Shown: positions 14,401-64,000 of the stretch, piece after piece
Numbering within the stretch: the stretch's first letter is position 1
Layout: the number at the start of each line of letters is the position of its first letter
From: Branchiostoma lanceolatum
Lineage: Eukaryota; Chordata; Leptocardii; Amphioxiformes; Branchiostomatidae
Direction of reading: 5' to 3'
DNA: 64,000 nt
Assembly (NCBI RefSeq): GCF_035083965.1
Contig: NC_089725.1
Coordinates: 29,645,925-29,709,924, forward strand
Position numbers and translations under genes: made by a program
Notes under the pieces: generated by a model
Seen by the model: only the letters and a program-made list of their open reading frames with translations
Database searches by the model: none
Told to the model about the DNA's origin: nothing

Positions 14401-17400
14401 AGTTTTTTTTTTTTCTAATCTAAAGGTCTTTTTCTCAGCAAATTACCTTTAACTGCACCTTTTGATTTGAGTTTCTTCTGTAGTGCATCATGTTAGAATT
14501 GACCAATAGGATCAATCATAGAGAATTTCTCTGAAGGAAGTGACCCTTGACCTCCATTCGTGCAACATCCGCCGCCCAGGCGGCTGGACTCGCTTTTTGC
14601 TTATGATTTTGCCATCAATTTTCACCTTTTACGCTACCATCAACAGTTTCAACCAAGCAGGCGGCCTTCTATGACTACCAAGGCGTGCGAACTTGCCTGC
14701 TAACTTGTGGGACTGCGCAAGAAAAGTATCAGCTCATCTTCCTGCAGGTGAGGCTGTGAGACAGCTGGCAGGCTATCAGGTTCTTTACGGGGTGGGGTGT
14801 GGGGGAGGCTCAACTTCAGGAGGTTTGTTTTGGAGATCAAGAGGTCCTTTTTTCAGCTGACTCCTTAGACTGGGCATCAGTACACTTGCCGTGGGGGGAG
14901 TGGGGGAGTTCCCTGTCTGATCATGACCACTAATTATTCCAGTATCTGTGGTTCTTGTGTAGGATTCAGTGTTGGCCTGAGACCTACCCTGTCTGATCAT
15001 GTTGGGTGTTATTTTCATACTAGTGGTCACCATCACTGGTCATTGCAGCAGTTGTGGTGTTTGTGTTGGATTTATTGATGGCCTGATACTGGCCCATAAC
15101 TTTGTACAGAGATTTCAGCTTTGAAGTTGAGGCAGTTGGCCTTGTGTCATATGACAGACTTTCAGTGTCCAAGGATTGAGTGATAGCCTGATACACTGTC
15201 TGACAATGACCACTGACTGTTGCAGTATCTGTGGTGTTTGTGTTAGACTCAGTGATGGCCTGGGGCTGAACCTGCCCCATCTGATCATGACCACTAGCCA
15301 CTACAGCAGGTGTGGTGTTTGTGTTGGATTCAGTGATGGCCTGAGACTGAACCTGCCCTGTCTTATCATGACCACTGGTAGATGTTGTGTCCTCTGGTGG
15401 TGTTCCTACACCTGCATACATAGGATTTGCTTTTATGTTTTGTGATATGTTTCCAACTTTCAGAGGTTGAGTGTTAGCCTGAGACTGGCCCTGCCCTGTT
15501 TGATCATGACCACTAGCCACTAGTGTGGTGTTTGTGTTGGATTCAACGATGGCCTGAGACTGAACCTGCCCTGTCTGATGATGACCATTGGTAGAAGTTT
15601 TGTCCTCTGGTGGTGTTCCCACACCTGCATACATAGGATTTGGCTGTAAGGCAGCTAGCACTTTGCTATGTGATAGATTTCCAACTTTCAGAGATTGAGC
15701 GTTAGCCTGAGACTGACCCTGCCCAGTTTGATTGTGAAGGTTGTCAATATCTTCATACTGGTGATCATGACCATGGGTCATTACAGAACCTGCTGTGTTT
15801 GTGTTGCTACCAACAACATTGGGGTTTATTCCTAAAGGAGGATGCCTGGTCCTCCTCTTGCACCAGATTGTGAGAATGATGCTGCCAAACAGGACAATGC
15901 CAGCCACTGGACCACAGATAGAGCCAATGAGATCAGGCAAGGGGGAACTGGGAGCAGATTCATTGGAGCTGTCTGAAGTGATTGCAATGGGTGTAGTTAG
16001 TGGTGCTGTTGTTTTACCTGTAGGACGTGCTGTTGAGCCAGCACTGGTTTTGAAGTACCAGTGATAGTTATTAGCATTTTCCAATTGGTTACCAAGGGGC
16101 CGTGTGGCAGATGTGGAGCCTACAGGATGTGCTGTTGGTCTAGTGTTGTGTTCTGTGTTTCCAAATGAAGAAGATGTTGACACTGCAGATGAGGGGAATG
16201 TGCCCTGGATGTCAAAAGACTGTGTGTCAGTTGTGGAGCCTACAGGATATGCTGTTGGGCTAGTATTGCTTTCTGTGTTGCCAAATGAAGAAGATGTTGA
16301 CACTGCAGATGAGGGGAATGTGGCATGAATGTCAGAGGTCAGTGTTGATACGGTGTTCTCGTTGCAGATCAGGTCTTCAGGATTGATATCTTTAAGCTTT
16401 TGTCCACGGAATATGGCAGGTTGGGCGCAAGTTATCTGTTTTTCGAATTTAGCAGACCCGCCCATTTTCATCCTGAAGGGAACCATCCCACAGTCGCACT
16501 GCCAGGGGTTATTGTAAATTCTTACTATTAAAATTGCTGACAACATGCCGTGAGCAGACTCAGGAAGGACAGATATCTGGTTTGTGTTCAGGAACAAATT
16601 TATGAGATTGGGTAGATTATTGAATGTACCTGGCCAGATAGAAGTTATCTGGTTTGAGTTCAGTCTTATCGCAAGGAGTTTAGGTACATTAGCGAATGCA
16701 CCTGGCTGGATAGAACTTATCTGGTTGCCCTCCAAATACAATGTTTTGACCTTATGTAGATTAGAGAATGCACCAGTTCGGAGGTCTGTTATCTTGTTAG
16801 AAGCCAGGTACACCAGCCGCAACTCATAATGATTTGAGAACAGACCAGGCTTAATCTGAATTATCCCATTTTGTTTCAAGTTCAATATTTCAAGCTGGGG
16901 TAGGTTTGACAAAGCCCCTGGCCAAATGCTAGTTATCTGATTACTTTGCAAATCCAAGTGAACGATGGATTTTGGGAGGTTCTGTGGGAAGCTGGTGATA
17001 TGATTATCACATACGTATAATCCAGCGATTTTGGGGGGGAGGTCCTCGGGGACGCTAGTGAGGCCCCGCCCTTTGCAGATGCAGCAAGGTGTTCGTTTTA
17101 TAGTCCACCTCCCGGGGATGCAGGGAAAGGATATTGAACATTTGCATACGGCGTCCGGCAATTCGGGCTCCTTCAGGATGATGAGAAGGAAAATCAGCAG
17201 GTATCTCAGTCTTCTTCCCATGGTGTTCTGCCACCTAAACAGGACAAGGAGCAGAAATAGGTTGGTTTGCGGTTTAAATTGCGCGTGCATGAGGTCAACT
17301 TGTAAACAGTTGTTGTCTAGACCATGCTTTACACATGTCCAGACATGTTTTGTTTATTTATTAGGGGCCTTCAACTTTGACAATTTTTTATTACTAACAA

Positions 17401-23400: not shown

Positions 23401-26400
23401 CAGTTTTTTGCCGATAAATAATGTCACCGCGCAATTGAAAATGACACGGTTGTCTTCGGCAACATTTTAAGTCGCATGTGCTCCGGTTTGGGGGCGGATC
23501 GATGGATTGACTTGGACTTTAATAATATGCCTGTGGAAAAATCGAGACCGACCGAAAGCAGTCATCTTGTCGGCGATCGTCGTCTTGTGGAAGTGGTCGG
23601 TAGACCAAGTTTGACTGTACACTGTACATGTATAGCATGTGAATAAATTGTTTCTCAGTGTGGCACTTATTGCTCGTGGTCAAAATCAACCGTTTCTATA
23701 GAGCGGCCACCTGTCCATAGCGGTCGATTTTGGCCAGTCCCTTGAGTGACCGCTATAGGCAGGTTTGACTGTACTTTCAAATTACCCCAATATTACAGTG
23801 CCATTCAAGTAGGCTTTGCTCAACTTTCACAGAAATGTTCCAAGTTGGATACAATACATCCATTGATAGTAATTACTCATCATCATCATCATCATCTGGT
23901 CGTGAGGGGGTCACGTCACAGATTACTACTAACAGTACTGTCACAGTGATACAGAAACTGATACTACGGTTAGCATTCATATGGGAATGTACAGAACTGT
24001 TCTAGGAAGTTTTCAATTGATGCGCCAATCTATAAAATCTAAAAGTGTTTAGTACAACCCTGAACTGTTCGGGGGGGGGGGGGGGGGTAAGTGTTCTGCA
24101 AACATGTGAGGTCAGTACACAGATTTGACTGGAGTTTGATACTACAGAATTATATTAGTACGAAACAATTGGACTTAATTTCAACGTTTAGATCCAAGGG
24201 GCATGAAGATGCAAACATTATGCAAGTTGGTGTAACAGTAGGGAAGTTATTTTTTATAGAAATGTGAATAAATCATATTTATATCTATCAATTTGTAAAC
24301 CTTTAAGAAGGTTTTTTTTGCTTCAACCTATTCAAGGTCTTTATTTTCATAGACGTGCAGATTGTCATGAGCCTTTGCTGTCTCCTCAGACAGGGCATCG
24401 GTACATTTGCCCTGTGGGGGGAGTGGGGGAGGCTCTTTATGAGTTTTATGTCGATTGGCCGTTCCAAGGGCCTCGTTCTTAGCAAATTGCCCTAGAAATT
24501 TACCTTTCGATTTGGGTTTCTTCTGTGGTGCATCCACATCTTCATATAGGTGAGGCTCTGAGAAAGGTGACAGGGCATTGGGACCTCTACGAGGTGGGGG
24601 AAGTGGTGGGGGCTCATCTTTTGTTGGTTTGTTTTTGTTGGCTATCCCAAGGGCCTTGTTCTTAGCAAATCGGCTTAGAACTGTACCTTTTGGTTTGGGT
24701 CTCTTCTGTGGTGCGTCCACATCTTCATACAGGTGTGGCTGGGAGACAGCTGCACCTGTATGGCGTGGGGGGAGAAGGGGAGGCTCATCTTCAGGGGGTT
24801 TGATTTGATCAAGAGGTCCAGAGGTCTTTTTTTCAGCTGGACATGGACCTTTAGATTTTGGGTTGCTTGGTGATGATTCCACACCTGTGTACAGAACATT
24901 TGGCTGGGAAGCAGGTAACCTTGTGTTATATGATATATTTCTAACATCCAAGGATTGAGTGTCAGCCTGAGACTGGCCCTGCCCTGTCTGATCATGACCA
25001 CTGGTCACTGCAGTAGCTGTGAGGTGATGACAATCACTAATCATTGCAGCAGTTTTGGTGGATTTAATGATGGCCTGATACTGGCCTGCAACTTTGTACA
25101 GAGAATTCAGATTTGAGTTCAGCCCTGTTTGATCATGACCACTAGCCCCTACAGCAGGTGTGGTGTTTGTGTTGGATTCAGTGATGGCCTGAGACTTACC
25201 CTGCCCTGTCTGATCATGAACACTTGTAGAAGTTGGGTCCTTTGGTGGTGTTCCTACACCTGCATACATAGGATTTACTTTTAAGGCAGCTAGCACTTTG
25301 TTATCTGATAGATTTCCAACTTTCAGAGAATGAGTGTTAGCCTGAGACTGACCCTGCCCAGTTTGATTGTGAAGGTTGTCAATATCCTCATACTGGTGAT
25401 CATGACCACTGGTCATTACAGAACCTGATGTGTTTGTGTTGCTACGAACAACATTCGGATTTATTCCTAAAAGAGGATGCCTGGTCCTCCTCTTGTACCA
25501 GATTGTGAGAATGATGCTGCCAAACAGGACAATGCCAGTTACTGGGCCACAGATAGAGCCAGTAAGACCAGGTAGGGGGAAGCTGGGAGCAGATTCATTG
25601 GAGCTGTCTGAAGTGATTGCAATGGGTGTAGTTAGTGGTGCTGTTGTTATGCCTGTAGGATGTGCTTTTGAGCCAGCATTGGTTTTGAAGTACCAGTGAT
25701 AGTTATTAGCATTTTCAAATTGGTTACCAAGGGGCTGTGTGGCAGATGTGGAGCCTACAGGATGTGCTGACACTGTAGATGAGGAGAAAGGGGCATGAAT
25801 ATCAAAAGGCAGTGTTGATATGGTGTTCCTGTTACAGATCAGGTCAGGATTAATATCTTTAAGCTTTTGTCCACGGAGGTTGGCAGGTTCGGCGCAAGTT
25901 ATCTGGTAATCAAATGAAGGAAACCCGGTCATTTTCATTCTGAAGGGAACCATCGCACAGTTACACTGCCAGGGGTTGTTGTCAATTCGTAAACTTCTAG
26001 TAATTACTGCCAACATGCTGTGAGCAGACTCGGGAAGGACAGATATCTGGTTTGCCTGCAGCCCCAAACATTGTAGCTTTGGTATTGGTAGATTAGTGAA
26101 TGGCAGGATAGAAGTTATTCGGTTTGAGCTCAGGTCCAAATATTGGAAATTGGGTAGATTATTGAATGTACCTGGCAGGATAGAAGTTATCCGGTTTGCT
26201 AGAAGTTGCAAATTTTGGAGCTTGGGTAGATTAGAGAATGCACCAGTTTGAAGATCTGTTATCTTGTTATAAGTCAGGCCCACCAGCCTCAACTCATAAT
26301 GATTTGAGAACACACCTGGCTGAATGTGAGTTATCCTGTTTTCGTTCAGGTTCAATTTCTCAAGCTGGGGTAGATTTGACAATGCACCTGGCTGAATACT

Positions 26401-29400
26401 TGTTATCTGATTTCTTTGCAAATTCAAGTGAGTGATGGATTCTTGGAGGTTCTTGGGGAAGCTTGTGATCTGATTATATCCCAAATATAAGAGAGAGATG
26501 TTTTTTGGGAGGTTCTGGGGGATGCTAGTGAGCCCCAGCCTCCAACAATTGCAGCAAGGGGTTTCTGGTGGAGCCCGCCTAGATGTTATTTTGCAGGGAG
26601 AGGATATTGAACACCTGCATCCAGCTTCTGGCATGTCAGGCTCCTTCAGGATGATGAGAAGGAAAATCAGCAGGTGTCTCAGTCTTCCTCCCATGGTGTT
26701 CTACCACCTAAACAGGACAAGGAGCAGAAATAGGTTGGTTTGCGGTTTAAATTGCATGTGCATGAGGTCAACTTGTAAACTTGTCTAGACCATGCTTTAC
26801 ACATGTCCAGACGTGTTTTTTTAATTTATTAGGGCCCTTCAACTCTGACATATTACTCACAATGAATGATGAACATGATGATCATGACTGCATGGCAATG
26901 GTTAGCACCTGCATCACACTGTGCATGTGCAATTTAAGCCGTAAACCAACTTATTACTAGTCGATAAATTATGCAAATTAGATCTTCAATTGTGTAATTG
27001 ATATTCAAACAATATTCTTGACTCTTTCTCAGTTTCACATTTCACATGTTTGAGAATCATGGAATGATCATGTTATCATTTCCATGTCTCATCAAGACCT
27101 ACCCACATACCATTAGTACATGACATTGTATCAATACAATATAGAATCCATTCCGGCCTTCCCAAGTTATGCTGTTCATCCACACATAGACACACCCACA
27201 AATGCTACGGATAATATAACCTTTTTGGCAAAGGTAATAGTGTCATGAGGTGAAACAAAATGCTGGTGTACAAAAGTTAGATAAACAGCATGTTGGCAAA
27301 ATAAAGTTGAAAATGGTGTCGAATATTTGACAATTACTATTGTGCCATAGAAGTATATTGCATCACTTTCCAGGGCATGAAATACATTTTAGTAAAATTT
27401 CCTGCCAACACCTGAGGAGTTTAAAAAGGGACTTGCAAGACACAAAACCATGATTATGATATCACTACTTAAGAATCCAAATCAAGTTTTAGTGATCCAT
27501 ACAAAAAGCTGCTGCCCTTCTGGACATTTGAAATTCATAAAAACATGGTGCACATTTTTACTGACTTCTTTGAATTTTGTATGAATTTTGTGCTTTTAAA
27601 AATGTCAGATTCTTGTGTGTGTGACCAAACTTGCCTTGGTGCTTTTGTGAAGGTTGAAATGCCTCTCTGATACGGCATTTACAATAAACGCTATGAATTC
27701 AAAGGAATCCTCCTCCCCCTTGTGAGTATGTATATACTAAGGACCATGATGTATTTCTGCTACCAATAGGGGAGACTTACCTTTAGTTGATCCAAACCTA
27801 CCTTTCAGTCTAGTCAGAATATTTTCAGTTGGTAGCTCCTTGCAAGGAAGTTACGAAGGCCTTGTTGTTCTCTTGTTGCTGTTTTGCTGGAAGGATACGT
27901 GCGTGCCTCAGTAGCTGATCCGCAATGCAGTGTGACAAACAGTTTTAGATTAGTCTTACTTATAGGGTGGGGTTGATTGTCTGAAGCTGGGTATTTGAAT
28001 ATTACAATTTATAATGATAAATAATCATTGTTTGTTTGTTGCTCAAAATTTCACAGACTTGGATGGCCTTGCTTGGGGTGTGGATAATATTCTTCCATCT
28101 TCAATAATATTGCTTCCCAACATTTAAGAAGAAATATACACAAAGTGTGTTGGTTGAAATCTGCATTAAAATCAAGGGTACAACCTCAACGGGACAAATC
28201 GGGGAACCCTGGATTCGAACCAGGTATCTCTGGGTTCTGGGACCAAACACCCTGCCACTTTGCAACCGCGACGCCGGTGTGTCTGTTGGGCAACAAGATA
28301 ACTCAAGAATGACTGGATGGATTGGTTTCATATTTGGTAGGGTGTGACAAAAACTGGAAATGATTTAGATTTTGGTTCCCCTAGCGGCTTCCCTAGGTAC
28401 TGCAGCGGAACTTCCGGTTTTGATATCTCATGTTCTGGACATTCTATGGTTACGATTTTTGTTTGGTAGATAGCCCTTGTGCTTGAAAACAAGACTTAGT
28501 GACATAAGTGGCTAGTTCTGGAATTGCAGACTGGGGCATTTTTGTCAAATATTTCCAAAGAGGATAACTCAAGAAAGGATCATGATCTTTGGTATGTTGG
28601 TAGCTTAGACAAAGATGTACAAAATGAAATACAAATCATGCAAAATAGATGGTCATTTACATGATTAATGAGAAAATCTTGTTATTATATTATATAGCAG
28701 TTTTGTCAATGTACTGGTATATCTTTTACCGGACATGATATGGTCTTGACATTTGGGCAGCAGGCAGCTTTTGACGTCATTACAGGTTTGGGCCCCCTAA
28801 CATTTTATTTTGAAACTGCCAATGCTCTTTTGTCAAAACATTCCAAAGAGGATAACCGAAGAAAGAAAAGACAGATTTCCATCATTTTAGGCATGCAGGT
28901 AGCTTAGGCAGAGATGTACTTGATAAGATACATGTTATGCAAATAAGAACTTAATTTGCATAATTTATCAGGAGACTCTATGATTCCATTGTTTTCCATA
29001 GTGGACTTCAATAAATGTAACACATGTAGTTTAAACATGCAAATGAGGAGCTTATTTGCATAATTAGTACAACCATGGCAGAACTGCTTAGTAATAGATG
29101 ATTGGAATGTTATACTTGTGAGTGTACAATCATGTATGTGTAAGTTAGCCGGAGGTGAACATCACCATGCACACATCATAGAATTTACAAAAGCTGTGAC
29201 ATTTCATGGAGGTTTGAGGTCACCACTCTTTAAGTTACATCTTTTTCTTATATTCTGCTCTACTAGCAATAAGAAAAAGGATGTAATGATAAAATGGTAA
29301 TTTAAAAAAAAAACAGTTGGAGGGAGTCTGCAACTGAGGCTACCAGCTCACTGTTATCATTAAGTTTAGCAACATATAAACATACTATTTTCTTTGGACA

Positions 29401-34714: not shown

Positions 34715-35619
<905 letters not shown>

Positions 35620-35730
35620 TAACTCATGAGTGTAAGATACTTTTATCATTCTTGAGAAATCTTGTTAACCTCAAGTTTGTAAAGTTGTACGAAAAGAAAA
35701 CAAGACCCCATATGTACAGTAAATGCAATA

Positions 35731-36594: not shown

Positions 36595-39500
36595 ATGGTG
36601 TTCAGCAACAGGGACAGGTCATATGTGTGAGTGTGTCTGTGTGTGATGATGGTGTTCAGCACCAAGGACAGGTCGTGTGTGTGTGTGTGTGTGTGTGTGT
36701 GAGGATGGTGTTCAGCACCAAGGACAGGTCATGCTGTGTGTGTGTGTGTGTGTGTGGATGGTGTTCAGCATCAAGGACATGTCCTCACCCTTTTGAGCGC
36801 CACGACGTTGTTACAGATGAGCACCCCTCCTGAGAACTCCGCCTGGATGCCTTCCTTCTGCAGAACCTGCTTGATGTCCGACAGTCGCGGTTTGTTGATG
36901 AACACGGCTTCGTGGCCTGGGATCTGAAAAATTCATAAATCAACATTGTGACAATGTAGTATATAGTAGTTACTGTAGTAGTATTCAGGTTTTGATTATA
37001 TTGATGCCGGGGTCCCTGACACGGGTGGGCACCAGTCGGCTAGTCTTCACCCGGCGGTTCCAGTACCACGAAATGTCACAAATACTGTTGGGTAATTATA
37101 TCTATCAATGTTCAAAGCCAATACAATGTATTATGTACATGTATGTTGGCTTTGAAAAGGTGGTAAAACCTATTCCACCGTACACTCCATTGTTATTGTG
37201 AAGCACAATAAGTAAAAATGAAGAAATCAATAAATATTTCTAACATTCACCAGTAGTTTAAAGAAGAACAAAACAACTACTTACATAATGTGACAGAGAG
37301 TAATGAGGGGTATGAATAATTTTGTAGTTAACTATATACATAGTGAGAACATGTCCATACCTGGCTGACAGGTAGTGCCTCCAGGGTAGGAACTGTCTCT
37401 CTTGACTCCTCTGCAGCTGACTTAGCAGACTTGCCTGCAACAAACAGAACATTCATTGTACATTAGATTATCATGTACATTGCACTTTGAATTCCTATAA
37501 ATTACACATGGTCCTTTTAAACATCTACCAACTTCAACTTGCCGAAGAATCTGTAGCCTATATTGACTGTACGTTTTGGACCATCGCACACTGGATTTTT
37601 TTTCAACGTGCGTGGGGTGTGGCTCTTTCCAAACACGGGACCTCCATTTAACGTCCTATCCAAGGAATGTCCCTAACCTAGGCTACGTACTCATTTACAC
37701 CTGAGTGAAGTGAGGAAGTGAGGAAGGTTGAATAAAGTGCCTTTCCCAAAGGCACAAGATTGATACCATGGCAGGATTCAAACCCGGATCCACTTGGTTC
37801 TGAGCTGAACACTTTGCCATTGCGCCACCTGACCCCACGTACTGTACTGTAAGGCCACACCAAATTAATCTTATGGATGACATCCGCGCGCGCATTGATT
37901 TTCGCCTGTTGTAAAAAAAAAAAAATCACCTCCTCCAAAGCTACACGGAACTCCGGAACTTGCTGACTTAAATTGCCGCAAAAGGCTAGCATTGTGCCAG
38001 CTTATCGGAAAACTGGGGCGTATTTGTGGATTGGTATGCCATTGACGTTGGCTAGGGGGATTTTGCGTTTGCACAGTTGTACGAGAGGATCGCGGCGGCC
38101 AGCGAGTATCGCCCAGACAATTTCAAACACGACCTATCTAGGGTGGCTCTCACACGTTTCTTTTGCAATAATGAGAGACATGGGAGGGATTGGCAGAGGT
38201 CTCACAGTGAGATTTGTGAGCGTAAACCATGGAATGCTTAATATGGAGTTCAATGCCATGTATGTTGAAACTGCCCTTATGGGTGTATATGAGTACTAGT
38301 ATTCTCATCACAGTCATATATCATCCACAGTCCTTGGAGCCAAATACCTTCTAATAGTATACTTCTTTGGTCGGTCTTGTCAATATATTAAAAACCAATC
38401 ACTTGCGCTGAGTCTGCTATGATGAACAAGACAACCTACGTGTACGCAATACCAGTATTGTTCGCAATACCAGCTTTGTACTAGTAGTCCTGTGGTTTAG
38501 CAGCATTTTTTTTGTGCTGGATTTTCTTTCTTTTCGCCCGTGCGCATTAGTTTTGGGGTCTCCAGAGGATGTCATCCATAAAATCAAGTTGGTGTGGCCT
38601 AATGAAATAAACCAGTCACATATCATACCCTTCTTCTTCTGCTCCTCCTCCTCCTCCATCTCTTGGACCTCCCCCTCCTCCAGGAGAGCGGAGGTGTCGG
38701 TGGCGGGCGTGGTCAGGTCCAGCTGGCCGTCCACCCAGGCCAGCTCCGTGTCCCGCGCCTTGAAGAACTGCAGGGAGCTCACTAAGGAGTCCTTCAGCTT
38801 CACCTGGACAGGGCAGAAGGGTGTAAAAAGGGTGTAAGGTCCTGGACACTTTGTAACATCATAGAAAACAAAATGTCTTGAAGAACTGCAGGGAGCTAAC
38901 TAAGGAGTCCTTCAGCTTCACCTGGACAGGGCAGAAGGGTGTAAAAAGGGTGTAAGGTCCTGGACACTTTGCAACATCATAGAAAACAAAATGTCTTGAA
39001 GAACTGCAGGGAGCTAACTAAGGAGTCCTTCAGCTTCACCTGGACAGGGCAGAAGGGTGTAAAAAGGGTGTAAGGTCCTGGACACTTTGCAACATCATAG
39101 AAAACAAAATGTCTTGAAGAACTGCAGGGAGCTAACTAAGGAGTCCTTCAGCTTCACCTGGACAGGGCAGAAGGGTGTGCAAAAGGTTGGTTAAGTTAGT
39201 CTTGTTGAGGCCGTAGGGGCAGTGAGTTACCATCCACTGTGTTTAGGGCACAAAATTGAAAGGTGGAGCCCAATCCTCTTCTTCCACTGCTGACCCAACC
39301 TCAGTCAGGTATCGATTTTCACACCTGGGTGGCGTGAGAAAAGTTTTGTAGTAAAGTGCCTTTGCCAAGAGCACAACATCGGAGGGATGTCACAGGATTC
39401 GAATCCAGGACCTCTGGGTCCTGGGTCAAACACCCTGTTGTTACTATATATAATGCTCGGCAGCTGCCTACAGCACTACCATTTCTTATCAATAAGATCC

Positions 39501-54700: not shown

Positions 54701-56227
54701 ACACAGACTATGGTATACCGAAATAAAGATTTTTTATTTATTTCAGTTCTTTCAAAACTTCTTTGACTTTGGCATTCTTTAATAGCATCCGTTTTCTGAA
54801 GTATCTTTTGGTAATTTAGAGCATGATTTCCTTATTTTGCAGCTGCTTTTTGCGATTTGCGGTATGACCGAAAACCTTTTTTTTTCTATTCTTGGACGAA
54901 AATTGATGCGCGTGCGGATTTCATCCATACAATCAAATAAAAAAGATTTTAAAAAAATATCAGCATGGCCTAATAAATGACACTGCCACCTCCAGCCATC
55001 CTCGTTCACCAGGACCCTTCCGCTCCACGTTACATCGCTCGCAGAAAGGCCCTTTCTGCGAGCGATGTAACGTGGAGCGGAAGGGTCCTGGTGAACGAGG
55101 ATGCCTCCAGCCAGCAAGGATTTTGATTCTAGGCGTGTCCACTTCGAAACGGTTTCGCGAAGTGAGTGCGCCTCAAGCGGACTGTTTGTGCGTTAGACGA
55201 TCTTAGACATTTTAGAAATTAAACGTTAGAAATTTTAAATAACGACACAAATATGTTGAAAAGAAGTAGTAAATGTGAATTACATCAATATATCTTATAT
55301 CTAGAATATCTCAAATATTAAAGACAAACGATCATACATCTTTGATCATCTTTAGGGTTATGATACCTCTGAAAGACTCCCAGGCTGCTTTACATGGAAT
55401 CCTCCAATATTCACCATATTTGGCATGGACGGCTGGGGAAAATCCAACAAAGGATCGGACACGTATAGCCAAACGTCGGTGTGAGACATCGCGGTCAGGG
55501 CTGTCTCCCCCTTGCCGAGGTACCTGTGGGTAACACTGTCGTGTGCCCTTGCCCACAGCCAGAACACTGCCATTTGTTTACAGACGACGAAAGCGTTCTC
55601 TAACCGTTGTAGAAAAGGCATGCGATCATCGAAGGTAGAAAACACCGACGGTACGTACGAGCAAGGGAAGGGAACCCCCGTGGCTCTTGTGTCGTGTTCT
55701 AAGGGTGCCACCAACGCGACATTAGGGACGTCCAGGTGTCTGCCGACTATTGCTCCACAGTGAAACAGGGCGTCGGTTACGATGACATCGTACCGCGACG
55801 CCTTCATGCGGTCTGTCAAGGTACTGTTTCTCAGCAGCAGGTCACAATGTTTTGCCATTTCTTGGCCCCACATTTGGCGCAGTTGTAACAGCCGGGGGAG
55901 GAAGATTTGACCATCCTCCCCCGCTTCCTCCCTCTCCAGGTTGTTAAGTTCTTCAAGGCGTGCCCAAGTTCCTTGGTCCTGGAATGTCTCGAACTGAAAA
56001 TCAGGCCTGTCCTTTTGCCGTTTTGTCAGAACGCGCTCTGGAAAGACTACCGCCACATCGTGCCCCCTGTCCGACAAGACTTGTCCGATCTTTGCCATTT
56101 CGAACCAGTAGCTTTCTATGACCGGGGTTGGCACCAGCAGTACCTTTCCACCGTGGACATTGAATCTTTCATCGGACAGGAGGTGCAGAAAAATCGCTAC
56201 AGAAACTGCGAGTGTGATCGCCCGCAT
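51767..56227 (-). CDS. UDP-glucuronosyltransferase family (UGT), 4 coding exons, 525 aa
   Basis: Exons (minus): 56227-55367, 54377-54158, 53199-52980, 52043-51767; phases 0, 1, 2 match and the sum is 1,578 bases. The usual UGT plan is complete: signal peptide (MRAITLAVSVAIFLHLL), N-terminal acceptor domain, UDP-sugar domain with VSFGAF, QKVLWRHGG, WLPQNDLLGH, FVTHAGRSSVYEAL and DQPANA, then a membrane helix and basic cytosolic tail CCRKCRRVGKIKSQ. Such enzymes act in the ER lumen and join sugars to lipophilic compounds. The ATG at 56227 is chosen because the open frame upstream has only a TTG. At residue 40 the usual catalytic His (SHW in vertebrate enzymes) is Tyr (SYW); the partner Asp (VTDALFHCG) is kept. 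Substrates are therefore uncertain. The UGT gene is common and expanded in lancelets, so no symbol is given. Confidence 0.88.
53231..53370 (+). mobile_element. tRNA-derived SINE in UGT intron 2
   Basis: gcagcgtcagggtgttcggc, then cccgggttcgaatcccctga (B box and T arm), then a body with gaaaggcacttaacacgac and an end at ttccacccaggtg. It is the best-preserved member of the family in the window. Confidence 0.7.
53510..53737. mobile_element. Fold-back element (about 228 bp) in UGT intron 2
   Basis: Arms of about 80 bases (taccctgggagaccag to cggcccaccctcc, and its complement to ctggtctcccagggta) surround a spacer of about 60. Arms differ by a few bases. Target duplication is unclear; tcaatt occurs near both ends. 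Confidence 0.65.
54553..54970. mobile_element. 418-bp MITE-like element, TAA target duplication, in UGT intron 1
   Basis: TAA flanks it (54550-54552 and 54971-54973). The left end GGCTATATTGATTTGC and the right end with catccatacaatcaaat and atggcc are degenerate relatives of the GGCCACACC family. Its inner part matches 19030-19107 plus 20439-20562, which shows where the 19108 element landed in a sister copy. Confidence 0.6.
54997..55103. mobile_element. 107-bp perfect palindrome with 8-bp target duplication
   Basis: Two 53-base arms with a single central base; I see no mismatch. The outer ends read CATCCTCGTTCACCAGG. CCTCCAGC lies on both sides (54989-54996, 55104-55111), an 8-bp duplication as in hAT-type insertion. 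Any transcript, including the UGT pre-mRNA, would form a long hairpin. Confidence 0.75.
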
Positions 56228-57170
56228 CTCCGCCCCACAACACACCAACCAGCAGTTCCCAGCTGAAGGGTCAAAGGTCGGTGGTTGGTGACGTAAATTT
56301 CAATCATACCTGCCAAGCGACGACCTGTTCAAGCCGACCACATTTTTTCCCTCGGTACCGGTGGGTGCCATCCTGTTACTACCGGTGCTCCTAAAGTCGC
56401 CTCCCTAAAAATTTCCCCCAGTTTTTTTTCCGGAACTGAAGACTTGCCCAAGAGGACCACCTGTTTAACGCGACCGCGGTGCAGTTGAAGTTTGGTCCAA
56501 TGGATTCATTCATGCATTAAAAGTTTCTGTACAGCTGAAGCATGCTAAGCTTGTACCTCATTACATAATTGTGTTACATTCAACTCCGTATACGAAGGCA
56601 TTACTGGCTCTATGTAATAAAAGAAGTGTGTGTCCGCAATTCGGCATTTGGCTAGGGTGATCTCTGAGTACTATTAGGGTAACGCTAGGAACTTCGGCAC
56701 CAACCCGGGCAGTTCTACGGGCGATTCAATGAAAATTTCCAGCCTCCGTAGCAGGCTCTCTGTGACTTTTTCTTTTGGCACATAATACATTTTTAAAAAT
56801 CTTTTTCTTGTTCTTTCTTTTGTTCTTTTGCTGGGGACGAGCGACAACACGGTTTCCCCAGCAAAAGAACCTGGCCACAATCCCAAAATCGAGAATCAGC
56901 GAAGATTAACTCCGGAATCGCCCTGAAGACATGCAGGAGGCTAGCCCAGGTGCGGTAGTGCGGCGGTACTCAATGAGGTTTAAATAAATATATTTGATCA
57001 TATTTAACCTCCTTGTTTGAAGACAACGTTCTCCCGCGCTCGACATACAGCTCAAAATTTTCCGAAGACAGACTCGGTACCCATATGTTTTCCGACAACT
57101 TCCTTATTTGGGAAGCGTTTCTGTCATGCGCAGAGATAGGCATCTTTGAAAGCGGGAAGTTTGCCGACAA
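56228..57170. other. UGT 5' flank and intergenic region
   Basis: 56305-56490 is a decayed TACAGTCAAACC-family piece (gccaagcgacgacctg, gaggaccacctg, aacgcgaccgcgg). The rest has no supported gene; the UGT promoter should lie in the first few hundred bases. About 56780-56880 holds a small inverted repeat (ttcttttgctgggg / ccccagcaaaagaa). Confidence 0.5.
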
Positions 57171-57176
57171 ATTTTG

Positions 57177-57207
57177 ATGTTTGGTCGTCGTTGTAAGAGC
57201 AAAATGG
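57177..57207 (+). CDS. Candidate first exon of the RAG1-N-like gene
   Basis: An ATG opens MFGRRCKSKM and reaches a donor ATGG|GTGAGT in phase 1, which fits the phase-1 acceptors of exons A, B and C (58135, 59169, 60784). The 3' part and the following intron resemble the end of exon B (AACAAAATGG|GTGAGT, then acagtcattttcgtt). It may therefore be a true first exon, or the tail of a lost upstream unit. RNA data would decide. Confidence 0.4.
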
Positions 57208-58134
57208 GTGAGTCTACAGTCATTTTCGTTTCTAGAATATGTAAGAAACTGCATAGATGTATGCTGCTATAACATAGATGTATGAGTTTCCCTGTTTACT
57301 GTGGGGGCTATGCTAGTCCCTCGAGCAGCTGGTTAATTCGCTTCGGGGCAAATCGCTAGGAGCCCCGGCTAAGCCCTGCCGTACTCAGTCTGGGACATCT
57401 GGGCTTCCAGAAAATATACATAAATGCAAAATTTGTTTGAATCTGATTGCTGAGCTCAAGCATAATTTGCATACTGTTTACGTTGCTAATAAAAGTATTA
57501 GCCCCAGAGATAGGAGAGATCGCCCTTTTCTTTGATTTTTTGGCGACGACTTAGAGGCGAGCCTATTGTCTTCATTTCAGTAGACCCACTGACAGAAATT
57601 CGCCACACACTGTTAATTAGACTGTAATCACAGAGTCAAGTTCTTATTTATTGTAGGAATATTACCAGCGAAGAACAGAATTTACTTCATTCCATTGACT
57701 CCCAGATCTTAGGTCCATGCTGTAACAAAATATTATGTTGTTGTTATTTATTTCCTAATACATTTAGCCCATGTTGCCATGTTGGGCATGAACATGCAAT
57801 AAAATTCATTGTCATTGTCATTAAACCGATAGCATTATGTAAAGTGCATATGATAATGTAAATTTAGGAGGTTGAAACCTCCATGAATAGATCATATATG
57901 ATATGTTTATTCCATACTTTACAACATTCATATTTTGGCTAACTCATGTGAAGAAAAATCAGGCAATAATTAAGTTATTGCAGAAAATGACAAGTGCGCT
58001 TGTCTACATCCTGTTTTGTTTTGTTTTAATGTTTATAAGATTTTTAATTAAACTATGGTGTGTTTACTTTCTTGGTATACTTTTTTGGGCCTGTCTGCCA
58101 ACACCAGATTCACAATGTTTCTCTTTTATTCCAG

Positions 58135-58745
58135 ACCACAAAGGAAATCTTGCAAAAGTTTGCAGGACGTGCGGTATTCGCTTCCGACTGAAGAAAGGCA
58201 ACCCAAAACCAGTGACAGCCTTTAGAGAAGTCATTTTGTATCTGTTTAATGGTTCTGATGTCACTCAGGATGAAGAGGACATTCATCCACCATTCGTGTG
58301 TGACAAATGCCGGTGTGTCCTGAGAAATGCTCAAGCTACGATGAAAACGGGAAAAGCACCAATAACAATGTTAGGTGACAGGCTGCCAGATTTTCAGCCA
58401 CACTTAGAAGACAACTGTTTCATATGCAATTACAAGCCAACTGGTAGGCCAGTAAAAAAGAATCCCCGCTCCTTGAAGGGGTCATCCCCAGCTGACATTG
58501 CAACCCTCCAAACCCCAGGTATGTCTCGAGAGGATGCACCTCTCCAGACCTCCAGTACATCTCAAGAGCACACAGCCCTCCAAACCCCAGCCTCTGCATC
58601 TCAAGAGGACGCACCCCTCCAAACCCCAGGTACTACATACCGAGAGGACCCACCCCTTGATTTAAGCCTCCTAACAACAAAAACGACTGTAAACTCACCT
58701 ATTTTGCTCGTACCAAGGACTCCTTGGTACGAGCAAAATAGGTGA
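58135..58745 (+). CDS. RAG1 N-terminal-domain-like exon A (end altered by an inverted duplication)
   Basis: After the acceptor ctcttttattccAG the frame reads DHKGNLAKVCRTCGIRF. It continues with the spaced ligands IHPPFVCDKC and PHLEDNCFICNY: the CxxC ... HPxxxCxxC ... PHxxxxCxxC order of the zinc-binding N-terminal region of RAG1. A basic stretch (GRPVKKNPR), a short repeat (EDAPLQT) and PLDLSLL follow; PxDLS is the classical CtBP-binding motif. At the 3' end a 91-bp palindrome has copied and inverted the exon end, so the frame stops at 58745 and the donor (AATAG|GTGAGT) is out of phase with exons B and C. No RING finger and no catalytic core are present. It may be a truncated or non-functional member. 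Confidence 0.65.
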
Positions 58746-58765
58746 GTTAACAGTCGTTTTTGTTG
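58675..58765. repeat. 91-bp palindrome from an inverted duplication of the exon A end
   Basis: Arms of 45 bases with one central base and one mismatch. The right arm matches the end of exon B and its donor (ccttggcacaaac, ggtgagtttacagtc) in order; the left arm is the same in reverse. Sister exon B has no such left arm, so the inversion is derived in this copy. Confidence 0.75.
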
Positions 58766-59168
58766 AAATCTCTTAATGTTTTCGTCTGTAGAATATGTAA
58801 GAAAATGCATAGATTTATGCTGCTATAACATAGTTACATGAGTTTCCCTGGTCAAGTGAAAACTTTTCTATGAACTTACGGACCCTTTTCTTGCATAATT
58901 TGTTTGAATCTGACTGCTGTCGTTTTTCCTGATCGCTGAGCTCAAATATTGCACCTTGCAGTCGTACGGCGAACCAGGTCCGTACTTTCGGTGTTGTTTG
59001 GGAAGCCAAGCTTATAATCTTAGCAAAATTCCATAGATGGCCTTTCACGGCCAACCAACAAAGTGGTGGGAGGGGGGTAACTTACAATTGGTGTCTGGAC
59101 ATTCATCCTAATGTACATGTGGCTACATGCAGGTTCTCAAATCTTATCAAGTCCATTTCTTTTTACAG

Positions 59169-59933
59169 ATCACAAACAAAAGCTTGCAAGAATGTGTAGA
59201 ATTTGTGGGATTCCAAATAAACCGAAGAAACACCGAAACCCAGCGCCAGTGTGTACATTCAGAGAAACCATAGCGTACTTGTATGATGGATATGATGTCC
59301 AACATGATACAGAACACATCCATCCACCATCTGTGTGCTGGAAATGCCAGTGTGCCCTCAAAAGGGTGCAAGAAAAGATCAGTAAGGGCGAGGCCCCGAA
59401 TACTCTGCTACCCAGCAAGCTTGCAGATTTTGTTCCACATGGAGATAGTTGCAACATCTGTACGTTCAAGAAAGCTGGAAGGCCAGTTAAAAAACACCCC
59501 GGATTGCGAGTAAAATCAAAAGTGTCCATAGAGGACGTGCCTTCCACATCTGAGCCCTACCCTGATACACCTGAGCCCTCCACATGGCAGTCCTCTGTAC
59601 CTGAGCAGACCACATCAGACTCCTCTGTACCTAAGCCCTGCACTTCGCAGTCTTCTCTACCTGAACCTTACACATCGCAGTCCTCTGTACCTGAGCCCTC
59701 CACATCACAGTCTTCTGTACCTGAGCAGACCATGCCAGACTCCTCAGTACCTGCTCCCTCCACATTGCAGTCCTCTGTACCTGAGCAGACCACATTGCAG
59801 TCCACAGCTGACGTTGCAACCCTCCAAAGCCCCGCCTCTACATCTCAAGAGGACGCACCCCTCCAAACCCCAGGTACTACATATCGAGAGGAAGCACCCC
59901 TTGATTTAAGCCTCCTTGGCACAAACAAAATGG
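59169..59933 (+). CDS. RAG1 N-terminal-domain-like exon B (phase-symmetric)
   Basis: The acceptor tttctttttacAG and a phase-1 start give DHKQKLARMCRICGIPN, then HIHPPSVCWKC and PHGDSCNICTF, the same zinc ligand order as in exon A, with GRPVKKHPG. Next come variants of a 12-residue repeat (PEPSTSQSSV), the block ADVATLQSPASTSQ and PLDLSLL (CtBP-type motif). It ends NKMG|GTGAGT in phase 1. Both ends are phase 1 over 765 bases, so the exon can be included or skipped without a frameshift. Joined to exon C it would give two zinc domains in one chain. Alternatively the frame runs on to a stop at 59995. DNA binding or dimerisation is only inferred from RAG1. Confidence 0.7.
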
Positions 59934-60783
59934 GTGAGTTTACAGTCATTTTCGTTGAAATCTCTCTTAATGTTTTCGTCTGTAGAATATATTAAAAAGT
60001 ATGTAACTTAGATTGATGCTTCTATAACGTTAACATAGTTACGAAAACTTTTCTAATAATGATTATGGAATTACGGACCCTTGTCAGGTTTTGAATTCAT
60101 TCCTGCATAAATTTGTTTGAATCTGATGACTGTTGATTTTTTCTTATCACCGATTGCACACATTCTATCGATGGTCTCGCAAGGCGAACCAACAGAGGGT
60201 GGTAGGAGGGGAGGCAGGTCCATACTTTTGGTGTTGTTTTTGAAGCCAAGCTTATAATTTTAGCAAAATCCCATGAATGGCCTAAACATAGAAAAATTGG
60301 ATGTAACGTTAACGTACGTTACAAGTTTAACTTAATTACTGTAAGTTATTTGTTTAAGATATTATGACCCTTCTGGTTATACAGTACTAAATACTACTTA
60401 TATTTAGAGGTTGGATAATGTTTGTGTATTCTTATATAGACTTACCCATGTTTATACAGAATGGTATAGATCGGATCAAGTTGATACTTGTTAGATCAAG
60501 GACTTGGTTAGATGATGTACTGTAATTCACTTTAAGTTCATGGTAGCAAAATTTCACGGTGTAAGAAAAATGGACATTTTCACTGAACTTTAACTTCACG
60601 GTGGTAGCAAGTGACTTGCAGAAAAGATGTGTGAAGGAATCATAAATAGGTTTTTGACTGTGATGATAAGTTCACGGTCCAGCGATGACAGTGAAAACAG
60701 TGAACTTAAAGTTACAGTGAAAGAAACAAGAACTACAGTACTTCATAGACATGTTGTTGACAATCCTATTTGTATAGTTTCAG
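59934..60783 (+). other. Spacer/intron before exon C
   Basis: Its first part repeats the sequence after exon A (gtttacagtc, ttcgtctgtagaatat, gaagccaagcttataat). This confirms a duplicated exon-plus-intron unit. An open frame from an ATG at 60627 runs into exon C and could serve as an alternative N terminus (MCEGIINRFLTV). Confidence 0.5.
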
Positions 60784-63386
60784 ATCACAAGATAAAGCTG
60801 CTTGGAGTCTGCAGAGTGTGTGGACTTCGTTTCAAGTGTAAGAAAGGTCGAAATCCAAAACCAGCACACGCTTTCAGAGAGCCCATCTCGTACTTATACG
60901 AGGGTTTTGATGTTGGATGCGACAAAGAAGACATCCACCCTTCCCACGTGTGTGATAAATGTAGAAATGCCTTGTGGAAGGTGCAAACTGCCATCACAGA
61001 GGGTAAAGCGCCCAAAACCATGCTACCTGGAAAGCTTCCAGATTTTTCCCCACACACAGAAGACAACTGCAGCATCTGCAATTACAAGGAAACTGGGAGG
61101 CCAGTGAAGAAAAACATCGGATCAAAAGGACGAGTACAGGAAGTCACACCCTTCACAGCTATCTTGCCTGCATCACATGAAGACGTGTCAGAGTCCTTCG
61201 GACCTCAGCAGAACATGCCAGAGTTCTTTGTACCTGAGCCCGCCACATTTAAGTTCTCTGTACCTGAGCCTTACACATCAGAGTCCTCCGTACCTGAGCC
61301 TTACACACTGAAGTCCTCTGTACCTGAGCCATGTACTTCGCAGTTCTCTGTACCTGAGCCTTCCACATTTCAGTCCTCTGTTCCTGAGCCTTCCACATCA
61401 CAGTCCTCTGTACCTGAGCCTTCCACATCACAGTCCTCTGTTCCTGAGCCTTCCACATCACAGTCCTCTGTACCTGAACCTTTCACGTTAAGCTGGTGTG
61501 TAATGCCAAATGGCGGTTTATACCGGCTATATCGATATGGATACACATCGCAGTCCTCTGTACCTGAGCCCTCCACATCAAAGTCCTTCGTACCTGAGCC
61601 GTCAACATCACAGTCCTCTGTACCAGAACCATCAACATCACAGTCCTCCGTACCTGAGCCCTCCACATCAAAGTCCTCTGTACCTGAGCCCTCCATATCA
61701 AAGTCCTCTGTACCTGAGCTATCGACATCGCAGTCCTCAGGCTCTTTACCTCAGTCCTTTGTACCTGAGCCGTCAACATCACAGTCCTCTGTAACTGAGC
61801 GCTCCACATCGCAGTCCTATGTACCTGAGCCCTTCACATCACAGTCCTCTGTACCTGAGCCGTCAACATCACAGTCCCCCATACCTGCACCCTCCACATC
61901 GCAGTCCTCTGTACCTGCACCCTCCACATCGCAGTCCTCTGTACCTGAGCCCTCCTCATCGCAGCCCTCTGTACCTGAGCCGTCAACATCACAGTCCTCT
62001 GTACCTGGGTTCTCCACATCACAGTCCTCTGTACCTGAGCCCTCCTCATCGCAGCCCTCTGTACCTGAGTCCTCCTCATCGCAGCCCTCTGTACCTGAGT
62101 CCTCCACAGCACAGTCCTATGTACCTGGGCCCTCCACATTGCAGTCCTCTGTACCTGAGTCCTCCACATCACAGTCCTCTGTACCTGAGCCCTCCTCATC
62201 GCAGCCCTCTGTACCTGAGCCCTCCTCATCGCAGCCCTCTGTACCTGGGTCCTCCACATCACAGTCCTCTGTACCTGAGCCCTCCTCATCGCAGCCCTCT
62301 GTACCTGAGTCCTCCTCATCGCAGCCCTCTGTACCTGAGTCCTCCACAGCACAGTCCTATGTACCTGAGCCCTCCTCATCGCAGCCCTCTGTACCTGGGT
62401 CCTCCACATCACAGTCCTCTGTACCTGAGCCCTCCTCATCGCAGCCCTCTGTACCTGCATCCTCCACATCAAAGTCCTCTGTACCTGAGCCCTCTACGTC
62501 GCAGTCCTATGTACCTGAGTCCTCAGTACGTGAGCCCTCCACATCACAGTCCTCTGTACCTGAGCAATCCACAACTAAGCCCTTCTTGCCTGGGCCTCAC
62601 ACATGTGTGCTGAAAAGTGAAGAAATCGTGGCAGAAGCAGGTAGACATGGGTTCATCCTCGCTGGAACCAAGAAAACTGGAACTCTTGTCCTTGTCAAGT
62701 TTCGGAACATAAATGAAGAGCACATGTCAGTATCTATGACAGTCGACGTCGAAGCAGACAGAACGTGGCAGCTCCACGTTCAGAACAAGTCTCTGTCGCC
62801 CTCCAGTCCCCAGTTATCCGAAGCAAATCTGCCTGCTGTACTTTCAAAGTCAACCTGCAAAGATTTTTTCTGGTACCTGTCGTACTGCTTCATTTGCATT
62901 GGGAACATCGGTTATGATTCCCTACTTGACGCCAGGAGAGAGGGGATAGAGACAGTGACGTTGTCAAAACTGGATGGCACTGTCGCTGCAAGGGAGGAGG
63001 TCGGAACATTCAAGGAGGGACGTACTACGTACACGAGGACAATCAGACACACAGACTGTCATGTACTACTTCCACCCACCAGGAGGTCTGCACGATGTGA
63101 GTGCTGTGTGAAGTATGCCTCTTCCTTGCGCAGTGCACTAGCTAAAAGCAAAGTAAAATCAGACCCGAACATTTCTGCCAGTTCCACAGTTCCTCACAAG
63201 TACCTATCAAAGGAGCAGCTGATTGCAAAACTAGCTGAGGCACAAAGGGAGAGGAATGATCTCAGGGTACAGGCAGACACACTCAAAAGACGCTACTGTG
63301 AAGCCTTCAGTACGGAAGGGTTCACCCTGAATGGAAGCCAGCATAACCACCCACAGATTGTGGAAAACACCCCATTGCAGGGATGA
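60784..63386 (+). CDS. RAG1 N-terminal-domain-like protein, terminal exon C with long Ser/Pro repeat and C-terminal domain
   Basis: After atagtttcAG (phase 1) the frame reads DHKIKLLGVCRVCGLRF, then DIHPSHVCDKC and PHTEDNCSICNY, and GRPVKKN: the third and best-kept copy of the RAG1-N-like zinc domain. Then about 450 residues of a 12-residue repeat (SVPEPSTSQSS type; Ser to Ser and Pro to Ala/Gly changes) follow. The last 270 residues hold a globular part (HTCVLKSEEIVAEAGRHGF onward), a Cys pair (CECC) after PPTRRSAR, and a terminal coiled coil (SKEQLIAKLAEAQRER). With the candidate first exon the protein is 877 aa. Without it, an ATG at 60627 gives 919 aa. The similar N-terminal domain is known from vertebrate RAG1 and from RAG1-N-like sequences reported in invertebrates and mobile elements. 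No RAG1 core, transposase catalytic triad or RAG2 is seen here. Function unknown; nuclear DNA binding is a guess. Confidence 0.75.
61240..62580 (+). repeat. 36-bp coding minisatellite in exon C
   Basis: Units like cctgagccctccacatcacagtcctctgta repeat with 36-bp period, roughly 37 units by length. Third positions and single codons vary. Long open frames on the other strand and in other frames (for example 61819-62613) are by-products of the periodic sequence. Some blocks of several units recur, showing recent expansion. Confidence 0.85.
61488..61548 (+). repeat. In-frame insertion of a dispersed repeat in the minisatellite
   Basis: LSWCVMPNGGLYRLYRYGY interrupts the PEPSTSQ series without breaking the frame. 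Its DNA (gtttataccggctatat, gatatggatac) resembles 41345-41397 in CPSF2 intron 13 (ttataccggttatatagata, agatacg). It is an exonised fragment of an interspersed repeat. Confidence 0.6.
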
Positions 63387-64000
63387 GATAGAAAATGTAT
63401 AATGCCCTTGTATATATTTATGCTGTATATGTATAAAGTGTCATTGTACAGACTGGCTAGTTATGAAGAGTTTGTAAGCATTTAGAATATCATTTTACCA
63501 AGGTAACATTGCATTCTGCAGGGTTTATATTCACTTTGAAGCTCAGCCAGTAGGTACCCTAGTCAGAGTAATGAGGCTGTTCCTAGGTTGTAGTGATGAT
63601 AAGGTGCAGTAGCTAGTTTCATAGAGTGGGAATCTCACCCGGATAGCTAGTCTTGATTCTTACGGGGAAGAAGTTATATTCTCCAAGCAGAGGTTTCGAT
63701 CGTGGGGGTTAGTAGTGGCCAGGATTTTCAAAGACATTCAAAATCCCGGCCACTACTAACCCCCCTGATCGAAACCTCTGCTTGGAGAATAAAGAAGTTA
63801 GCCCTCGGACCTTTGGAGTTCTGGACATGGTACTTGTAGGAATGTCCCCTTGTGCTGGGCACAAACATAACATTGCCCTGTTGCACTGGTCGTAATGGTT
63901 GGAAGATCTAAGTGTGCTCTTGTACAGTAAGATCACATCGGCTCTTTTCCTTCGGAAGAGAAGGGTAGGTAACTAACACCTGGAGCCTTTGCGAGTATGG
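63387..64000. other. 3' flank of the RAG1-N-like gene
   Basis: Contains the 63677-63791 fold-back element. No coding frame; a clear AATAAA soon after the stop is not visible. Confidence 0.5.
63677..63791. mobile_element. 115-bp fold-back element with 9-bp target duplication
   Basis: Arms of about 50 bases (TATTCTCCAAGCAGAGGTTT inward to ggccaggatttt, and the complement) surround a short loop (caaagacattc). AAGAAGTTA lies on both sides (63668-63676, 63792-63800). The outer motif matches the element at 50078. Confidence 0.75.

Follow-up and report, generated by a model that had tools for sequence, protein, structure and literature searches.

The gene and its three zinc domains

The stretch of DNA analysed here (the window, 64 kb in length) carries at 57204-63386 a single gene of four exons, and not three separate genes, according to the model of P0001, which NCBI describes as "uncharacterized protein [Branchiostoma lanceolatum]". 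The exons listed in Table 1, once spliced, translate exactly to P0001 (1290 aa). The window stops 614 bases past the stop codon, so that catalytic exons could lie further downstream, although P0001 likewise ends at that stop.

Table 1. Features of the locus, with strand and the basis of each assignment
Feature	Position	Strand	Basis
Exon 1 (ATG G), then GT donor, phase 1	57204..57207	+	Required for exact P0001 match
Exon A: CND 1 and Ser/Thr/Pro linker	58135..58629	+	Motif; PF12560 2.3e-11; P0001 exon ends
Cys/His motif, CND-A	58161-58427	+	Pattern scan
Unit junction ahead of exon B: end of linker, ATAG resembling exon 1, 5' intron	58720..59043	+	Homology
Exon B: CND 2 and Ser/Pro repeat linker	59169..59933	+	PF12560 6.7e-10; P0001 exon ends
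Cys/His motif, CND-B	59195-59461	+	Pattern scan
Unit junction ahead of exon C: end of linker, ATGG donor, 5' intron	59912..60283	+	Homology
Exon C: CND 3, Ser/Pro repeats, precatalytic domain, stop	60778..63386	+	PF12560 2.4e-7; P0001
Cys/His motif, CND-C	60810-61079	+	Pattern scan; predicted fold, mean pLDDT 89.1
Ser/Pro linker, 43.7 repeats of 30 bp (10 residues)	61222..62524	+	Tandem repeats
P-type transposase precatalytic domain: alpha/beta part, CxxC, long helix	62598..63383	+	Identity to relatives
Long helix, model residues 205-240, likely coiled-coil dimerization segment	63210..63317	+	Predicted model

A six-frame pattern scan for CxxC..H....CxxC..H..CxxC gave three matches in the whole window, every one of them on the forward strand, and a rescan of stop-free frames with overlaps allowed again gave three. 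DHK marks the start of each domain and GRPVKK its end, and all three are above the 23.3-bit cut-off of Pfam PF12560 (RAG1_imp_bd), with scores of 44.3, 39.4 and 31.0 bits. These results agree with the earlier note, which had described three CxxC/H zinc domains in the order of the RAG1 N-terminal region, with this conserved start and end. The PF12560 match is lost in all three domains when the residues other than Cys and His are shuffled, and also when Cys and His are masked, and therefore the Cys and His residues are necessary for the match and insufficient alone.

A profile of the domain family matches RAG1 over the whole of its central non-core domain (CND) at 3.8e-16. RAG1 scores 63.8 bits against this profile, and none of 1000 shuffles with Cys and His held fixed reaches that score (maximum 26.1); when the six lancelet rows are removed from the profile, RAG1 still scores 60.0 bits. 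With Cys and His masked, RAG1 scores 12.4 bits, compared with at most 1.9 for masked shuffles, of which 588 out of 1000 were scored. Exon B also matches RAG1 (21wb) at 2.1e-4 in a single-sequence search. The pairs C110/113, C175/178 and C210/213 of murine RAG1 (numbering from an excerpt of PMC3124419) are aligned in register with the window CNDs. In alignment A1, residues H2, C10, C13, C57, C60, H91, C96 and C99 are invariant in 19 rows, mostly picked for a complete motif, and all eight positions are present in the three window domains. A1 holds 19 of 26 cut domains; it omits P0006, P0008, P0010, P0014, P0017, P0027 and P0067, in most cases for an altered or missing Cys or His, and so the invariance is partly by choice. 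When the predicted CND model was searched with Foldseek, nothing matched at E≤0.001, and the RAG1 N-terminal chain 21wb was absent from the list.

It is concluded from these sequence comparisons that each of the three exons A, B and C encodes a homologue of the RAG1 CND. The link to the RAG1 N-terminal zinc region that the earlier note drew thus has significant profile matches across the whole CND behind it, and the sequence profiles do not place the domain in an unrelated zinc-finger family, which the note had set as one of its refutations. That the domain is an unrelated Cys/His-rich finger merely resembling RAG1 is hardly credible: the effect of masking Cys and His on the Pfam match and a weaker profile match to Fin, a zinc protein of bacteria (7.9e-4), point that way, but the match is equally lost when everything except Cys and His is shuffled, and RAG1 exceeds its shuffled controls both with Cys and His masked and with them fixed.

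The window domains share with the RAG1 CND the match over the whole domain, the three CxxC pairs and the HP/PH histidines. RAG1 differs in having about 19 extra residues past the first CxxC, one CND instead of three, and a RING/ZDD and a core, both of which the window gene lacks. It had also been claimed that no RING, RAG1 core or RAG2 lies nearby. For the gene itself this holds as to RING and core, neither RING/ZDD nor the RAG1 catalytic core having been found in P0001 by Pfam at E≤1; for the rest of the window the absence of a RAG1 core and RAG2 is provisional, the Pfam check having covered 7 of its 104 open reading frames at least 90 aa long.

P-type transposase relatives and the missing catalytic domains

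The nearest one-copy relatives found are transposases of the P-element/THAP9 type, and most of those from lancelets have a single CND. In P0002, P0003 and P0005, Pfam finds PF12560 joined to TNP-like RNase H and GBD, the two domains that P-element/THAP9 transposases have. P0003 aligns with 6p5a, the transposase of the P element, at 3.2e-12, and DEMK, SD and QD..E are in register; these we take to be the DDE positions of 6p5a. P0002, P0003 and P0004 have the DDE motifs. In P0005, the only further relative found in B. lanceolatum, the third of these motifs is missing, and the deposited end of the protein diverges from P0003 there. P-element/THAP9 transposases carry THAP at the N terminus, whereas in P0001, P0002, P0003 and P0005 THAP is absent and CND occupies its place.

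A tree of the catalytic region was made from the 76 of 83 proteins that cover at least 330 query residues. All 18 CND rows fall in one clade with support 96/98 (one of them, P0026, being a partial weak match at 5.4e-5), and the six THAP rows lie outside it. Seven of the 25 CND-bearing proteins were dropped from this tree, namely P0029, P0038, P0048, P0049, P0051, P0052 and P0067. The named members of the clade are hydrozoans, echinoderms and lancelets, which belong to three animal phyla.

The window gene has the precatalytic region in common with these transposases. It is 39.8-49.6% identical to P0002, P0003, P0004 and P0005 (all four other lancelet transposases), and its predicted fold has a mean pLDDT of 86.0. 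In the model it ends in a long helix, which likely forms a coiled coil for dimerization. After the helix, comparison of the window with P0002-P0005 shows no catalytic similarity, the RNase H and GTP-binding domains that come next in the relatives being absent, and Pfam and a motif check of P0001 found no TNP-like RNase H, GBD or DDE motifs. By these comparisons, the window gene is a derivative of a P-element/THAP9-type transposase and not itself a transposase. The earlier note overlooked the precatalytic domain, which lies 3' of the repeats.

History of the three-domain array

In a tree of the domains, CND-A groups with P0003/P0005 (support 91/86), and CND-C with P0002 (support 96/93). The two thus group with different transposase lineages, and the array looks like a mosaic. 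The flanks between the units share segments of 86-97% identity. The two unit junctions are 67.6% identical over 386 gapped columns, with ungapped segments at 86-93%, and the first is also homologous, in part, to 57200-57294. Between the three domains dN is 0.27-0.34, and dS is 1.39 (A/B), 2.81 (B/C) and saturated (A/C). The low dN/dS may have arisen while the domains were still parts of active transposases.

The locus could be a decaying or young transposon relic, in which the N-terminal ends of CND-type P elements lie in tandem without a function, are open by chance and were joined by gene prediction. This would fit the missing catalytic part, the palindromes and repeats inside the units, and the isolation of P0001, which is the sole member sequence of its own entry and for which two protein searches found no second tandem-CND protein. 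Against it, 1290 codons are open, the splice sites are in phase across the four exons of P0001, and the eight Cys/His positions are kept in every domain. We consider a relic unlikely, though well worth bearing in mind.

A mobile element of RAG1-N-like sequence alone with RSS-like ends, as in Aplysia, is highly improbable; the original N-RAG-TP paper is said to describe such ends. The window protein is indeed RAG1-N-like without the RAG1 core, as is N-RAG-TP, which by its description in part of PMC8355894 is made wholly of RAG1 N-terminal-like sequence. However, the relatives have a P-type catalytic domain, and between 55 and 64 kb, up to the window end, no inverted-repeat pair of at least 20 nt links the two flanks.

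The independent host gene family proposed earlier, with RAG1-N-type domains and no tie to transposons, would suit the three domains, the absent catalytic core and the annotated host gene model. It is scarcely tenable. The C-terminal part is that of a transposase family, which largely refutes the idea; moreover, domains A and C cluster with domains of transposases, and the closest relatives found are transposases of the P-element type. The note's other suggestion, a domesticated RAG1-N-like mobile sequence, came nearer, although domestication is putative; the mobile element belongs to the P superfamily, a point that the note had missed.

Possible function and the origin of the RAG1 N terminus

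Origin of the window gene from a transposase is close to certain. By its sequence the gene derives from a P-element/THAP9-type transposase with a RAG1-type CND in the place of THAP. Its N-terminal exon stands in triplicate, with copies that group with different branches of the lancelet CND family; the precatalytic domain and long helix are retained, and within the window the RNase H and GTP-binding domains are lost. Most probably it makes a non-cutting protein that would dimerize via the helix, and whose three zinc modules would bind either DNA, at transposon ends or at host sites, or other proteins as partners. Such a protein might act on CND transposases of the P0002/P0003 type by competition or silencing, like truncated P-element proteins. 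The latter (66 kDa, and KP of 207 aa) are repressors, according to an excerpt of PMC7776569. They are truncated transposases that keep an N-terminal module, as does the window gene together with its likely dimerization part; the window gene differs in having three zinc modules of another kind, and any repression by it is putative.

The protein is probably a transposase derivative without catalytic activity which, in the manner of P-element repressors, would bind DNA or partners; a role in binding DNA or protein without catalysis is likely. Repression of related transposases in particular is doubtful. The RAG1 CND binds two zinc ions and DNA, and is described in the same excerpt of PMC3124419 as monomeric and as binding DNA without sequence preference, which counts against site-specific binding by CND alone. 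As P0005 lacks the third catalytic motif, an intact target in the same species is hypothetical.

According to a 2015 paper, the Transib/Chapaev group contains the only transposable elements with this domain. We argue against this restriction because CND is found on P-type transposases; its presence on P-superfamily transposases of three phyla removes the Transib/Chapaev-only premise, if the Chapa domain is CND. Chapa, found in Chapaev/TransibSU, is the RAG1 N-terminal zinc region according to section 6 of PMC4411706, as excerpted; by description it is the same region as CND, on a different catalytic superfamily. In the open-licence literature (titles and abstract openings, among the matches listed), no paper was found that names a P-type transposase with a RAG1-type N-terminal domain.

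Unrelated jumping genes appear to have exchanged this part of RAG1. We suggest tentatively that the RAG1 N-terminal zinc domain is a mobile module on a ZAD-like fold, exchanged among at least two transposase superfamilies (three with Chapaev); that one possible donor of the RAG1 N terminus is the P-type CND transposase, found in cnidarians, echinoderms and lancelets; and that the lancelet gene is a cassette-like multiplication of CND variants into a new regulator. The presence of CND on P-superfamily transposases makes domain exchange between superfamilies a testable alternative for the origin of the RAG1 N terminus, and offers simple proteins for learning CND function.

These proteins also offer a possible link between CND and ZAD. 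ZAD is a domain of many insect DNA-binding proteins, and the resemblance of part of CND to the insect ZAD fold is a lead. Against zf-AD (PF07776, cut-off 28 bits), exon C scores 14.4 bits, exons A and B are unlisted at E≤10, and RAG1 scores 17.5 bits. Among the relatives, P0009 scores 25.3 bits, though the precomputed domain list assigns zf-AD to it.

Gene structure and kinship to RAG1

A pattern scan of the window in six frames found three occurrences of the Cys/His motif, each on the + strand, which confirms the motif described in the earlier note. The three exons said to encode it, here called A, B and C, also stand, except that they belong to one gene, which has in addition a very short first exon (Table). 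Spliced together, exons 1, A, B and C reproduce exactly P0001, an uncharacterized protein of 1290 aa from Branchiostoma lanceolatum. In this model the exon A donor is located 5' of the second palindrome, and the exon C acceptor lies six bases ahead of a site of the cag/AT type, which is the type used by exons A and B.

Table. Exons of the window gene and nearby palindromes
Feature	Position	Strand	Basis
Exon 1, four bases	57204-57207	+	Splice match to P0001
Exon A	58135-58629	+	Splice match to P0001
Exon B	59169-59933	+	Splice match to P0001
Exon C	60778-63386	+	Splice match to P0001
First palindrome, near-perfect	54984-55116		
Second palindrome, near-perfect	58672-58768		
Third palindrome, near-perfect	63677-63791		

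The likeness to RAG1 proposed for these domains was upheld by Pfam, PDB and profile searches. All three score above the curated cut-off for PF12560 (RAG1_imp_bd), the RAG1 central non-core domain (CND). In a single-sequence search of the PDB, the top match in each case was RAG1 chain 21wb, with E-values of 0.012 (CND-A), 2.1e-4 (CND-B) and 0.0028 (CND-C). A family profile built from 19 CND members matched RAG1 across the whole domain, with E-values of 3.8e-16 for 21wb and 2e-12 for the full-length protein. Residues identical to RAG1 over the aligned length number 28/106 for CND-A, 30/107 for CND-B and 27/107 for CND-C. Without its six lancelet rows, the profile still gave 77.5-84.3 bits for CND-A, -B and -C and 60.0 bits for RAG1.

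The Pfam match was lost in all three domains when Cys/His were masked, and also when all residues except Cys/His were shuffled. RAG1 scored 63.8 bits against the profile, and none of 1000 shuffles with Cys/His fixed exceeded 26.1. When Cys/His were masked, RAG1 still scored 12.4 bits, compared with a maximum of 1.9 for masked shuffles (588 of 1000 yielded a score). As described in a published account (PMC3124419), the RAG1 CND contains the Cys pairs 110/113, 175/178 and 210/213, binds two zinc ions, has nuclear localization as one of its roles, and binds DNA with no detectable sequence preference. By profile and predicted fold, its first part resembles ZAD (zf-AD) of insect zinc-finger proteins, an observation that bears also on the CND at 58135-58427 and on the other CNDs.

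CND on P-type transposases

The closest single-CND protein is P0002, a lancelet hybrid of 1178 aa, in which the CND is followed by TNP-like RNase H and GTP-binding domains (GBD). When residues 395-1178 of P0002 were used as the query, 83 proteins were retrieved, 25 of which carry a CND at E<1e-4 by profile, each beginning inside the first 60 residues. Profile members were each left out in turn for this count, which is 26/84 with P0001. THAP takes the place of CND in six of the 83 (precomputed Pfam). CND carriers with a named source come from lancelets, hydrozoans (Hydra, Hydractinia, Clytia) and echinoderms (sea stars, sea cucumber, urchins, crinoids, brittle star); the sampling is uneven, since a lancelet CND protein served as the seed. 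The lancelet relative P0003 matches 6p5a, the P-element transposase of Drosophila, with an E-value of 3.2e-12 and three catalytic motifs in register, and relatives from other lancelets have complete DDE motifs. P0005, from B. lanceolatum and labelled THAP9 by its source, has CND, RNase H and GBD. Its third catalytic motif is missing, and at that point the end of the deposited sequence diverges from P0003.

In a 76-row tree of catalytic regions, all 18 CND rows fall within one 27-row clade (support 96/98), and all six THAP rows lie outside it. The tree tool counted four changes of CND label, which arise because nine rows of the clade have no CND at the cut-off. Eight of these have fewer than 70 residues ahead of their first long alignment to P0003, which is too short to hold a CND; the remaining row, P0019, matches the CND weakly. 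Such rows may be partial gene models or real losses. The simplest reading is a single swap of the N-terminal module for CND within one P-type lineage. A 2015 paper restricted the Chapa domain, among transposable elements, to the Transib/Chapaev group. If Chapa, known here by description, is the CND, then CND-bearing P-type transposases contradict this. A literature search of limited coverage found no description of CND on P-type transposases.

Loss of catalysis within the window and proposed function

Exon C contains about 44 in-frame 30-bp repeats (61222-62524), which encode a Ser/Pro-rich linker; short repeats ahead of the precatalytic part also occur in P0002 and in P0004, another lancelet relative. 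Beyond these repeats, exon C encodes the precatalytic part of such a P-type transposase (42.6% identity to P0002, 49.6% to P0004), whose predicted model (mean pLDDT 86.0) combines an alpha/beta part with a CxxC and a long helix. The relatives continue with a segment that matches HTH weakly and then with RNase H and GBD, whereas the window gene ends earlier. A search of the window with P0002-P0005 for catalytic similarity gave no match better than E 1.6. Such is the domain content of the gene, and catalysis is lost within the window.

In the best-supported model, the gene derives from a transposase, is catalytically dead, and encodes three zinc modules together with a helix for dimerization. 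Its protein would bind DNA and dimerize, and by P-element precedent might repress transposition: a published account (PMC7776569) describes two P-element products as repressors, one of 66 kDa that is missing the C-terminal third and the other the KP protein of 207 aa. It is rather unlikely that the gene is instead a relic without function.

Apparent mosaic array, palindromes and neighbours

In the CND tree, CND-A clusters with P0003 (91/86) and then, one fork deeper, with P0005 (92/97); CND-C clusters with P0002 (96/93), and CND-B is alone. P0002 and P0004 are sister rows in the catalytic tree (99/89), in agreement with the exon C CND and its body. Among the three CNDs dN is 0.27-0.34, and dS is 1.39 for A/B, 2.81 for B/C and past correction for A/C. 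At the DNA level an alignment was obtained for the CND exons A/C (68%) but for neither A/B nor B/C.

The unit junctions consist of a linker end, then ATGG or ATAG with donor and 5' intron. They have common ungapped segments at 86-97% identity and further segments at 67-79%; a gapped alignment of the junctions preceding exons B and C has 67.6% identity over 386 columns. The intron starts (57208-57294, 58744-58850, 59934-60000) have common segments of up to 90-97% identity, and those between units adjoin coding domains close to synonymous saturation. The A/B linker ends are 93% identical over 100 nt. Set against the diverged CND exons, the junction segments make the flanks look younger than the adjoining domains, most clearly for A/B, in a contrast that is uneven. 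CND exons may have been swapped between family members via similar introns; alternatively, conversion of the flanks or constraint on them might give the same pattern.

The three palindromes in the Table have arms of ~48-66 nt and spacers of 1-5 nt, and two shuffled versions of the window (first-order) contained none such; a fourth, 35482-35625, is a TA repeat. The second, which adjoins the exon A end, repeats the exon-1/intron start in inverted orientation. Candidate sources are template switching, short inverted elements or assembly.

Neighbouring features, all on the - strand, are an adjoining UDP-glucuronosyltransferase exon (55361-56299, PF00201, 2.3e-37), an exon matching the C-terminal domain of the mRNA 3'-end factor CPSF100 (38420-38899, PF13299, 9.3e-10), two long leucine-rich-repeat open frames, perhaps tandem genes (15023-17353 and 24331-26700), and a long open frame (2230-5058) that matches Roc and, below threshold, COR-A.
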